Assembly: GCA_019561565.1 (NCBI GenBank)
Contig: JAHEPY010000013.1
Location: forward strand, 1 to 44,568
Reading direction: 5' to 3'
Length of the DNA stretch: 44,568 nucleotides
Source: Methanothermococcus sp. SCGC AD-155-M21
Lineage (GTDB): Archaea > AGJL01 > Methanococci > Methanococcales > Methanococcaceae
How positions within the stretch are numbered: the first letter of the stretch is position 1; each line of letters starts with the position of its first letter. This document shows positions 6,497 through 39,359 of this stretch, piece after piece. Made by a program: the position numbers and the translations under genes. Below the pieces are notes generated by a model. It saw only the letters and a program-made list of their open reading frames with translations. It was not told the origin of the DNA and did no database searches.

Positions 6497-6889
6497 TTAA
6501 GTATTTTCCTGATACTTTTTTCCTATGGTTTCAACATCCACATTATCCAAATTCACTTTATAGTGAAAACAGGAATAATATCCCTCATGACAGGCCCATC
6601 CCATTTGCTCAACAACAAATAAAAGGGCATCCCCATCGCAATCCATATACATCTCTATTAACTTTTGTACATTGCCACTTTCCTCTCCTTTTTTCCAAAG
6701 TTTGCTCCTACTTGTGGAGTAATAATGCATATACCCTGTTTCAAAGGTTTTTTTCAATGCCTCCCTATCCATAAAGGCTGTCATCAATATATTTTTATTG
6801 GAATCTATGGTTATGGCAATTATTAATTCATTTCCATCAATTTTCCTAAACTTTAAATTTAAACTATCTATAATCTGATCTACATCCAT
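6497..6889 (-). CDS. hisI: Phosphoribosyl-AMP cyclohydrolase
   Basis: Opens the adenine ring of phosphoribosyl-AMP in histidine synthesis. It is the single-function archaeal form of 130 residues; there is no fused HisE pyrophosphohydrolase domain. The metal-binding DCDGDA (around residues 77-82) and the CHEGYYSCF block with the catalytic/zinc cysteines are both present, as is the [10 protein letters not shown] motif. RBS AGGGGA precedes the ATG by four bases. It is convergent with sufB. The region upstream (6890-7233) is not empty: it holds the H/ACA-like RNA described separately. Confidence 0.95.
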
Positions 6890-6954
6890 AGTGTCCCCTT
6901 ATAAATTAAATTAATAAAAAAATATTAAATTAAAAAATAGAAAAAATATTTTAA

Positions 6955-7192
6955 AGAGTTATCTCTCAACATTAACACCATTCCTCATCCTTGGCTTTGC
7001 CACGTCAGATGGCTAACCCATGTTGAGAGGGTATTATAGGATTTTTGCTGTGCCCTGATCATAATATGGGAAAACTCCCTATCACAGGGCTCGCCCAAAA
7101 ATCCATTTAAAAATTATACCTTCAATTTCGAACCCTCTATCATTGCAAGGTTATCCATAGGCTCCATGTGGGTCGGTTTATTGAAGGCATTT
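6955..7192 (-). ncRNA. Three-hairpin H/ACA-type pseudouridylation guide RNA
   Basis: A GC-rich island in AT-rich spacer. Read on the minus strand it forms three consecutive hairpins. Each has a long perfect lower stem followed at once by an AUA triplet, an allowed archaeal form of the ACA box. Hairpin 1: CCTTCAAT (7187-7180) pairs with 7126-7119, then AUA at 7117-7115. Hairpin 2: GGATTTTTG (7104-7096) pairs with 7047-7039, then AUA at 7037-7035. Hairpin 3: CTCTCAACAT (7029-7020) pairs with 6972-6963, then AUA at 6962-6960. Hairpins 2 and 3 have an internal loop (guide pocket) and a short upper stem (CCCTG/CAGGG and CCAT/ATGG) capped by UGA- and GA-rich bases that could form a kink-turn for L7Ae. 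Such RNAs direct rRNA pseudouridylation with Cbf5, Nop10, Gar1 and L7Ae. The ends are estimates. Confidence 0.72.
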
Positions 7193-7209
7193 AATATTAT
7201 AATTAAGAG

Positions 7210-7220
7210 TATATATAAAT
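7210..7220 (-). promoter_or_regulatory. TATA box for the H/ACA-like RNA
   Basis: On the minus strand this reads TTTATATATA, about 25 bases before the first stem of the RNA gene. This is the normal distance between an archaeal TATA box and its start site. It supports independent transcription of the island from the minus strand. Confidence 0.5.
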
Positions 7221-7233
7221 TTTTATTTATTAC

Positions 7234-7806
7234 TTAATCCTTAATATCCACAACAGTTATGTTGAATATTAATGTTTTTCCTGCCATAGGGCTATTAAGA
7301 TCCAATACTACATGGGTATTATTTACCTCCACTATTTTGGCAGGTTGTCCTCTAACATATATATAACTACCAACTACTGGTGTTATATTGGCCTCTATAA
7401 AAGATTCAATTGGTATAGGTATTATTAAATCCTCTCTAACAGGACCATAGGCCTCCTCAGGAGGGATTTTAATCCTTTTATTTTCTCCAATATGCATACC
7501 AAGTACTTCCTTTTCAAATCCCTCTATAAGTTGGCCTGTTCCAACTGTGAAGTTTATGGGTTTATATTCCCTATTGGGATTATATATGCCATTCTCCTCT
7601 GCAACACTTTTAATAGATGTATCAAAAACTGTACCATTCTCAAACATCCCTATGTAGTCTACAGAAACGGTACTTCCATTTTTAACCACAGGGCCACCAT
7701 TGGTACTGGATACACATCCAGATAGGGACACCAATAGTAATAAACTACAGGCAACAAACATATAAGTTAATTTATTTTTAAAGAAAAACATTAATAGTTT
7801 TTTCAT
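7234..7806 (-). CDS. FKBP-type peptidyl-prolyl isomerase, predicted lipoprotein
   Basis: A 190-residue FKBP with an N-terminal lysine-rich start, a hydrophobic segment and a lipobox-like LSGC ending at Cys31, followed by a low-complexity linker. It is therefore probably exported and membrane-anchored. The FKBP fold begins at about residue 44 (VSVDYIGMFENGTVFDTS) and carries the long flap insert seen in SlyD-type and archaeal FKBPs (IKIPPEEAYGPVREDLI, then the insert, then LDLNSPMAGKTL). The expected role is catalysing proline isomerisation or acting as a chaperone outside the membrane. GGTGA precedes the ATG by three bases. The next gene downstream on the chromosome is a paralogue without the leader, so the pair probably arose by duplication and serves two compartments. 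Confidence 0.88.
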   Translation of the reverse strand: MKKLLMFFFKNKLTYMFVACSLLLLVSLSGCVSSTNGGPVVKNGSTVSVDYIGMFENGTVFDTSIKSVAEENGIYNPNREYKPINFTVGTGQLIEGFEKEVLGMHIGENKRIKIPPEEAYGPVREDLIIPIPIESFIEANITPVVGSYIYVRGQPAKIVEVNNTHVVLDLNSPMAGKTLIFNITVVDIKD

Positions 7807-7929: not shown

Positions 7930-8403
7930 TTATTCTTCTGTATTCTCATTCCCTTCTACATCCAATATCTTTATTGTGAATATTAAGTCCTTTCCAGCCA
8001 ATTGATGGTTAAAGTCTAAAATCACTTCATTTTCATTAACCTTAATAATTGTAGCGGGAACTCCCCCTGCAAGTATTACCATTCCCTCTTCAGGTTCAAA
8101 ATCTGCCCCCTCAAATGCTTCCTTTGGAACAGTCTGAATTAATTTTTCATCCCTTTGGCCATATGCCTTTTCTGTAGGGATCTCCACAGTTATTTCATCT
8201 CCTACCTCCTTACCTATAACGGCCTCTTCAAATCCTTCAATAAGTTGCTTTTCACCAACAGTGAATATTAAGGGTTCATAGGGTCTCTCAGGAGTATATA
8301 TATTTTCCTCCTTTGCAGTACTTTCCATTGAAGTATCAAAAACCTCTCCATCTTTTAATTTACCTATGTAATCTACAGTTACTTTATCGCCTTTTTTTAT
8401 CAA
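7930..8403 (-). CDS. FKBP-type peptidyl-prolyl isomerase, cytosolic, SlyD-like
   Basis: A 157-residue FKBP with the same domain order as the neighbouring lipoprotein but no leader. It starts directly with [22 protein letters not shown]. The flap insert ([18 protein letters not shown] and following) and the closing [16 protein letters not shown] are intact. The C-terminus is acidic (EGNENTEE). It should act as a cytosolic foldase or chaperone. The start is a TTG at 8403, chosen because AGTGAT lies just upstream and no in-frame ATG fits the fold. It lies 123 bases from the paralogue, on the same strand and upstream of it, so the two may share a transcript. Confidence 0.9.
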
Positions 8404-39074: not shown

Positions 39075-39359
39075 AATATCTCACCTTTTATATTTTAATG
39101 TAAATTTAATAAAAAAATATAGTCATAGATTAGTATAAAATTATGCTATAAAAGAAATGCCTTAGGATATATTTAAACTTTTTTAATTAAAAAATAAAAA
39201 TCTACAATATAATATATATACTATTAATTACAACTATTACATAAATATAAAAATTAATTAAAAATAAAAATAAATAATAATTAAAATGAAATAATTAAAA
39301 ATATAAAAATAATAAATTAAAAAATAAGTTAAAATTTTAAATTATTTAGAGGGGATATT

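Follow-up and report, generated by a model that had tools for sequence, protein, structure and literature searches.

Does the region at 6955-7192 of the window, the stretch of 44,568 nucleotides analysed here, encode a guide RNA, and if so, on which strand and for which uridines? The region is flanked by two minus-strand genes that were named by reading, hisI (6497-6889) and an FKBP gene (7234-7806). An initial annotation placed a three-hairpin H/ACA RNA at this location without giving a strand, and its coordinates proved to be correct. We find three tandem box H/ACA hairpins, encoded on the minus strand from 7190 to 6959, and consider it very probable that they form one RNA that guides pseudouridylation of U2504, U2554 and U1915 of 23S rRNA. 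Numbers are those of E. coli and were obtained by 23S alignment with E. coli rrlB. The assembly to which the window belongs (G000) consists of 98 contigs and is 55% complete.

Fold and strand of the three hairpins

The lower stems correspond to inverted repeats at 6963-6972/7020-7029 (10 bp, perfect), 7039-7047/7096-7104 (9 bp, perfect) and 7116-7126/7180-7190 (11 bp, 91%, with a perfect core of 8 bp). They are the three tandem stems followed by AUA that had been described initially; the AUA boxes as well as the guide arms named at that time, GGCGAG and CACAG, are all located on the minus strand. Between 6900 and 7250 the minus strand holds three tandem stems of at least 8 bp with an ANA directly or one nucleotide after the stem, and the plus strand holds none. 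Among 1000 dinucleotide shuffles of this 351-base stretch, none produced three such stems, 3 produced two, 96 one and 901 none. Lone hairpins with a stem and an ANA are frequent in the AT-rich window (27 on the plus and 28 on the minus strand, these three included), so that the evidence rests mainly on relatives. Three plus-strand stem matches in a row at 39085-39347 were dropped as low-complexity A/T sequence. Folding of 6930-7210, calculated for the plus strand, gave a z-score of -2.43, with 1 of 200 shuffles equally good; an RNA from the plus strand was rejected, as that strand has no qualifying ANA hairpin and no match to HgcG.

Each of the three hairpins is composed of a lower stem, a pocket, a G.A/K-turn stem and an ANA box (Table 1). 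Several properties agree with those of archaeal box H/ACA RNAs: a hairpin size of about 65-75 nt with a lower stem of about 9 bp, an ANA directly 3' of the hairpin and about 14 nt from the pocket top, a K-turn or K-loop with tandem G.A in the upper stem, and a bipartite pocket that is complementary to rRNA around an unpaired U. The initial annotation credited two hairpins with a pocket and UGA/GA elements; these are present, but the count was too low, since by inspection all three hairpins carry both. The TGA is invariant in the alignments of hairpins 1, 2 and 3 (A1, A2 and A3), and the GA opposite it is kept except for a change to AA in 2 of 15 hairpin 1 rows (A1) and single departures in A2. 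By inspection, hairpin 1 combines a 5-nt 3' guide with a 9-bp lower stem (14 nt) and has a G.A stem of 10 steps, including one mismatch and one bulge; this is the '10/5/9' fold which is termed productive in PMC4652768. The window's own hairpin 2, also by inspection, has a 13-nt ANA spacing and a weak C-stem in its K-turn.

Table 1. Positions of the predicted guide RNA and its elements in the window.
Feature	Position	Strand	Remarks
Whole three-hairpin H/ACA guide RNA	6959..7190	-	order on RNA: hairpin 1, 2, 3; RF00064 match and hairpin models R1-R3
R1-R3 model matches	7115-7190, 7033-7109, 6959-7032	-	own sequence among the model-building sequences
Hairpin 1, predicted target U2504 of 23S rRNA	7115..7190	-	covariation, target scan
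Hairpin 1 5' guide arm AAACCG	7174..7179	-	extends by A7173 on target UCGGUUU
Hairpin 1 3' guide arm UCGAA	7127..7131	-	target pairing
Hairpin 1 ANA box (AUA)	7115..7117	-	14 nt after 3' guide start; AUA in 14/35, ACA in 21/35 rows
Hairpin 2, predicted target U2554 (A-loop) of 23S rRNA	7033..7109	-	covariation, target scan
Hairpin 2 5' guide arm GGGCG	7092..7096	-	first G is also lower-stem top; GGGCG in 30/33, GGGUG in 3/33 rows
Hairpin 2 3' guide arm CAGC	7047..7050	-	last C is also lower-stem top; CAGC in 27, CAGU in 3, UAGU in 3 of 33 rows
Hairpin 2 ANA box (AUA)	7035..7037	-	13 nt after 3' guide start; over all rows 14 nt in 28/33, 13 nt in 5/33
Hairpin 3, predicted target U1915 (helix 69) of 23S rRNA	6959..7032	-	covariation, target scan, Pab40 control
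Hairpin 3 5' guide arm GGGUUA	7014..7019	-	GGGUUA in 32/32 rows
Hairpin 3 3' guide arm GUUA	6973..6976	-	GUUA in 29/32, GUUG in 3/32 rows
Hairpin 3 ANA box (AUA)	6960..6962	-	AUA in 11, ACA in 18, AAA in 3 of 32 rows, all 14 nt after 3' guide start
TATA-like TTTATATATA upstream of hairpin 1	7210..7219	-	putative promoter
Two T6 tracts after hairpin 3	6932..6946	-	possible archaeal terminator

Conservation and covariation

In plain MAFFT alignments the covariation scores were 0.191 for hairpin 1 (shuffled 0.115; 0 of 500 shuffles as high), 0.333 for hairpin 2 (0.204; 0 of 500) and 0.326 for hairpin 3 (0.238; 1 of 500). The tally of pairs altered on both sides is unremarkable in these alignments, as 75, 17 and 32 of 500 shuffles were as high for hairpins 1, 2 and 3, and further pair types are fewer than in the shuffles. 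Alignments fitted to the hairpin models (35, 33 and 32 rows) contain 11, 13 and 15 pairs that change on both sides in hairpins 1, 2 and 3, compared to shuffled means of 5.8, 9.1 and 9.8, and for each hairpin 0 of 500 shuffles reached the observed value; such alignments lean towards the structure, and the shuffle counts ignore relatedness. The pairing thus is kept in close relatives with changes on both sides, where a loss would have spoken against the initial annotation.

The guide arms vary far less than the stems that carry them: arm columns are 0.996, 0.972 and 0.996 identical in hairpins 1, 2 and 3, whereas the lower stems reach 0.753, 0.723 and 0.745. An ANA follows the start of the 3' guide in all 100 hairpin rows, at 14 nt in 95 of them (35/35 for hairpin 1, 28/33 for hairpin 2 and 32/32 for hairpin 3) and at 13 nt in five hairpin 2 rows, which include that of the window. 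The box is AUA in the window and ACA in 21, 19 and 18 rows of hairpins 1, 2 and 3, counting identical rows.

Predicted targets in ribosomal RNA

The pocket arms were scanned against all uridines in the 23S rRNA of seven relatives and in a 1520-base stretch that includes their 16S rRNA (711-948 uridines each). Since the window's own 16S and 23S rRNA genes are missing from the 55%-complete assembly, its guides were run on the rRNA of G005. Energies are given in kcal/mol without initiation and are meaningful only relative to one another. For hairpin 1, U2504 came first with all eight guide sets (-16.4 to -18.4, with the next site at -11.7 to -12.1), and hairpin 2 ranks U2554 first with 6 of 6 (-18.6 to -21.6, next -11.0 to -17.7). 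U1915 is first for hairpin 3 with 7 of 8 sets (-14.4 to -17.8); in G004 it is second by 0.1. Overall, the proposed site is first with 21 of 22 guide sets and second with one, and repeated first ranks are not independent because the target sites are near-identical between relatives and a single random seed was used throughout for the arm shuffles. Shuffled arms were equally good in 1-2 of 300 cases for hairpin 1, in 0-4 of 300 and once 26 of 300 (G016) for hairpin 2, and in 2-49 of 300 for hairpin 3, with the 49 in G004. Every pocket therefore has a top-ranked rRNA target, once as a near-tied second, where the initial annotation would have been in difficulty had no pocket fitted any; together with the pairing conserved in relatives, this supports its assignment to the multi-hairpin archaeal H/ACA RNAs.

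A genome of Thermococcales type, G040, provided a positive control. Pab40 guides modification of position 2588 in P. abyssi, corresponding to 2592 in T. kodakarensis (PMC6138745), and of P. abyssi 2016, corresponding to 1956 in H. volcanii (PMC2584109). In agreement with the reported Psi2592/2588 and Psi2016=1956, the top-ranked uridines for the Pab40-type RNA of G040, a strong HgcG match, were U2496 (position 2592) with arms I and U1915 with arms III. When the window's guides were run on the G040 23S rRNA, hairpin 1 reached only -10.2, hairpin 2 found nothing and hairpin 3 placed U1915 second (-14.4 vs -15.9). With the sister-family genome G023 (23S rRNA only), all three hairpins rank their own sites first. 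Targets in tRNA were considered for 30 of the 35 tRNA places of G005 and rejected: the best values were -13.7 for hairpin 1 (vs -17.3 for U2504), -4.4 for hairpin 2 and -13.9 for hairpin 3 (vs -14.4), the last being excluded only narrowly.

On the A-loop, hairpin 2 forms GCUG-U-U-CGCC(C), with two duplexes, one of 4 bp and one of 5-6 bp. The initial annotation had suggested this loop as a speculative target by partial pairing around U2555; the place stands, but the uridine and the pairing do not, as U2554 is selected with a full duplex. That hairpin 2 guides U2555 instead of U2554, or both, is unlikely. By inspection, the 3' arm as ACAGC could pair over 5 bp with the GCUGU that precedes U2555, but this register leaves two bases of the 5' arm unpaired at the pocket top, and in the scan U2554 was first throughout. 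A known counterpart also points to U2554: the Psi2923 assigned to yeast snR10 is listed right after Um2921 and Gm2922 (PMC8307265), and with Um2921 read as E. coli 2552 (PMC2584109), 2923 becomes 2554.

Guide and target also change together. All guide variants keep standard pairs with the target core (35/35, 33/33 and 32/32 rows for hairpins 1, 2 and 3), the target being assumed for rows without rRNA at hand. Both 23S copies of G025 have UCGGCU where the others have UCGGUU, and its hairpin 1 reads AGCCGA in place of AACCGA; the change in the guide compensates that in the site, because the usual guide would be left with an A.C mismatch. In G031 the guide is changed to GGCCGA with the site unchanged, and pairing is kept only via two G.U pairs. 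The fifth position of the 3' arm of hairpin 1 pairs in 5 of 13 guide/target sets and is mismatched in 8.

Distribution and array architecture

Each hairpin received its own covariance model; those for hairpins 1 and 3 were built from 15 loci of the window's family and that for hairpin 2 from 13. They detect hairpins 1, 2 and 3 in 34, 34 and 35 of the 36 genomes of the order, which we infer to be Methanococcales; without the genomes that supplied the models the counts are 19/21, 21/23 and 20/21. Searches at the level of the phylum comprised the same 36 genomes. The nine named records with the hairpin 1 pattern belong to Methanothermococcus, Methanocaldococcus(-aceae) and one Methanococci MAG. 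G007 (89% complete) gave no match to any of the three models. G012 (99% complete) has no match to hairpin 2 and an unchanged A-loop, which makes it a natural case for testing the role of Psi2554. In G025 the hairpin 1 model has no match, but a divergent hairpin 1 lies just 5' of hairpin 2. Under stricter filters, 33 of 394 archaeal genomes contained hairpin 1, all of them among the 36 of the order, and none of the 358 sampled archaea outside it gave a match; as these filters also missed G025 and G034, weak cousins outside the order could be missed. No match was found in phage records.

The arrangement of the hairpins varies within the order. Of the 22 genomes in the window's family, 20 have all three hairpins side by side, the exceptions being G007 with none and G012 with hairpins 1 and 3 without 2. 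The 14 genomes of the sister family have hairpin 1 next to hairpin 2 (13 according to the models, G025 by eye), with hairpin 3 located elsewhere in the genome; the hairpin 3 match in G033 is weak (E 1.6e-4). The adjacency in one family and the split in the other indicate that fusion or splitting of the array took place within the order.

Some loci deserve a separate description. G009 has one full array and a second copy with hairpins 1 and 3 only (L109, G009:C1:350000-362000), which resembles the stretch in G012 (L110, G012:C1:613500-625500). The shared sequence is about 98.4-98.5% identical (489 bp and 2.2 kb), although the genomes belong to different genera with 23S rRNAs that are 90.6% identical, and it adjoins an ORF resembling a heavy-metal P-type ATPase. 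This looks like an apparent recent transfer of the guide RNA with a metal pump between the two lineages. A partial hairpin 1 copy in G011 (L108, G011:C2:873900-874260; model positions 10-67, 52 bits) has a flank that by eye resembles the G009/G012 copy and is perhaps a remnant of the same transferred stretch. In sister-family loci L003-L009 and L012, the lone hairpin 3 ends 17-27 nt before the ATG of an ORF beginning with MKIYFA, with which it may share a transcript. Weaker second or third hairpin 3 matches (E 2e-7 to 8e-4) occur elsewhere in G023, G024, G027, G028, G029, G032 and G034 and may be further H/ACA RNAs.

Genomic context, mechanism and alternative readings

Of 35 loci, 34 have a TATA-like word at a distance of 17-50 nt before hairpin 1. 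The words were selected post hoc, and 184 of 5000 random 34-nt stretches taken from the window contain one of them as well. Judged from flanks of about 0.6-1.5 kb, hisI adjoins the RNA in 2 of 24 loci (the window genome and its close relative G002) and the window's FKBP gene in 1 of 24 (the window genome). The changing neighbours, the TATA-like box and the T tracts together argue for an independent gene. In the window the FKBP-like ORF is one of two in tandem on the minus strand (7234-7806 and 7930-8403; 190 and 157 aa), which are 47% identical over 150 residues.

In the mechanism that we infer, the transcript would come from the minus strand and would probably start at a promoter of its own. 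Cbf5, Nop10 and Gar1 would bind each hairpin at the lower stem, pocket and ANA box, and L7Ae would bind it at the K-turn, as is known for archaeal H/ACA particles (PMC7991803, PMC3608112), so that one RNA could give up to three catalytic units. The pocket arms would capture 23S rRNA and offer one uridine to Cbf5 for isomerisation: U2504 in hairpin 1, U2554 in hairpin 2 and U1915 in hairpin 3. Of the 36 genomes of the order, 34 have a Nop10 gene; none was found in the window's own 55%-complete assembly. The available parts of a transcriptome paper on M. thermolithotrophicus (PMC9765008) mention neither pseudouridine nor snoRNA, and PMC5199042 contains none of the terms looked for.

A position between two minus-strand genes, with T tracts after the last hairpin, would also suit a cis element such as a hisI leader, a terminator or a group of mobile palindromic repeats. 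We regard this as highly improbable, since the RNA persists where hisI and FKBP are not adjacent and its arms are near-invariant and match rRNA. Somewhat less remote, but still very doubtful, is a role as a folding aid, in which the RNA would bind rRNA and leave it unmodified. A precedent is snR30, an H/ACA RNA that does not direct rRNA pseudouridylation (PMC7601244), whereas the hairpins described here all retain the pocket, ANA box, spacing and K-turn.

The relation to HgcG, the Thermococcales three-hairpin H/ACA sRNA also called Pab40 or Pf7 (RF00064), requires closer comparison. HgcG is the sole credible Rfam match: it covers 6955-7244 on the minus strand with 45.9 bits (E 1.9e-11), but it does not reach the gathering score of 77 and leaves the middle of the model unaligned. 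Nowhere in the window does an Rfam family attain its gathering score, and other matches (rli60, RsaOG and others; E 1.7-9.5) were taken as chance. Among 61 genomes the HgcG model has matches in 33 and exceeds its cut-off in two, neither of which is from the order. Both RNAs consist of three tandem H/ACA hairpins, and the third hairpin aims at U1915 in each, hairpin 3 having the same arms (GGGUUA/GUUA) as Pab40 hairpin III, which are directed to U1915 (P. abyssi 2016). The first hairpin of the Pab40 type also addresses the peptidyl-transferase region, at U2496, but hairpin 1 ranks U2504 first, 8 nt further on, and its arms (AAACCG/UCGAA) differ from those in the Pab40-type RNA of G040 (GCGAGG/GCGA). 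Hairpin 2 ranks U2554 in the A-loop first; for the second hairpin of HgcG/Pab40 the target is U1932 in P. abyssi, the control runs having covered arms I and III. The separate location of hairpins 1-2 and hairpin 3 in the sister family is a further difference. It is very unlikely that the RNA is simply the order's own copy of HgcG/Pab40 with its three targets unchanged, and we favour a guide RNA for U2504, U2554 and U1915.

Comparison with known guide RNAs and enzymes

Three-hairpin H/ACA RNAs are already known, and so therefore is this kind of RNA; the function predicted for hairpin 3, as a U1915 guide, is the known function of Pab40 hairpin III. In M. jannaschii, a motif related to Pab40.3/Af4.3 was described for the equivalent of U1915 (L2015 in that work; PMC4652768), as for hairpin 3. 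The passage on it in that paper names only this motif and not hairpins 1 and 2, and the hairpin 3 loci of the sister family (f2) would fit it. In the open-licence PMC papers searched we found no description of hairpin 1 and 2 RNAs and no archaeal report of pseudouridine at U2504 or U2554 or of a guided Psi2504. In T. kodakarensis the mapped region 2588-2612 has pseudouridines at 2589, 2592 and 2607 only (PMC6138745); position 2600, which aligns with E. coli 2504 if the numbering equals that of G040, would accordingly carry none. The portion of the yeast table available from PMC8307265 has no pseudouridine at 2873, the counterpart of U2504 by a presumed offset of 369.

The predictions comprise three named pseudouridines in methanogen 23S rRNA, and the hairpin models annotate RNAs below the Rfam threshold in all genomes of the order searched. 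It is likely that this order makes the bacterial RluC-type Psi2504 of the peptidyl-transferase centre by means of an RNA guide instead of a protein, that the same RNA also holds the guides to the A-loop and to helix 69, which could allow a single particle to modify tRNA-contact sites of the large subunit together, and that assembly or splitting of the array occurred within the order. For hairpin 2, the counterpart by target site is yeast snR10, which makes Psi2923 in the 25S A-loop (table in PMC8307265; the text there gives 2919): hairpin 2 would address the same A-loop uridine, also as an H/ACA RNA, snR10 being a eukaryotic snoRNA. For hairpin 1, the counterpart is E. coli RluC, which makes Psi955, Psi2504 and Psi2580 (PMC7600485). 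The product predicted for hairpin 1 is the same, Psi2504, but RluC is a stand-alone protein and hairpin 1 would act through RNA guidance, which would be a case of convergence. If this is true, U2504 is modified by a protein in bacteria and with an RNA in these archaea, and the role of the modification becomes comparable between the domains.
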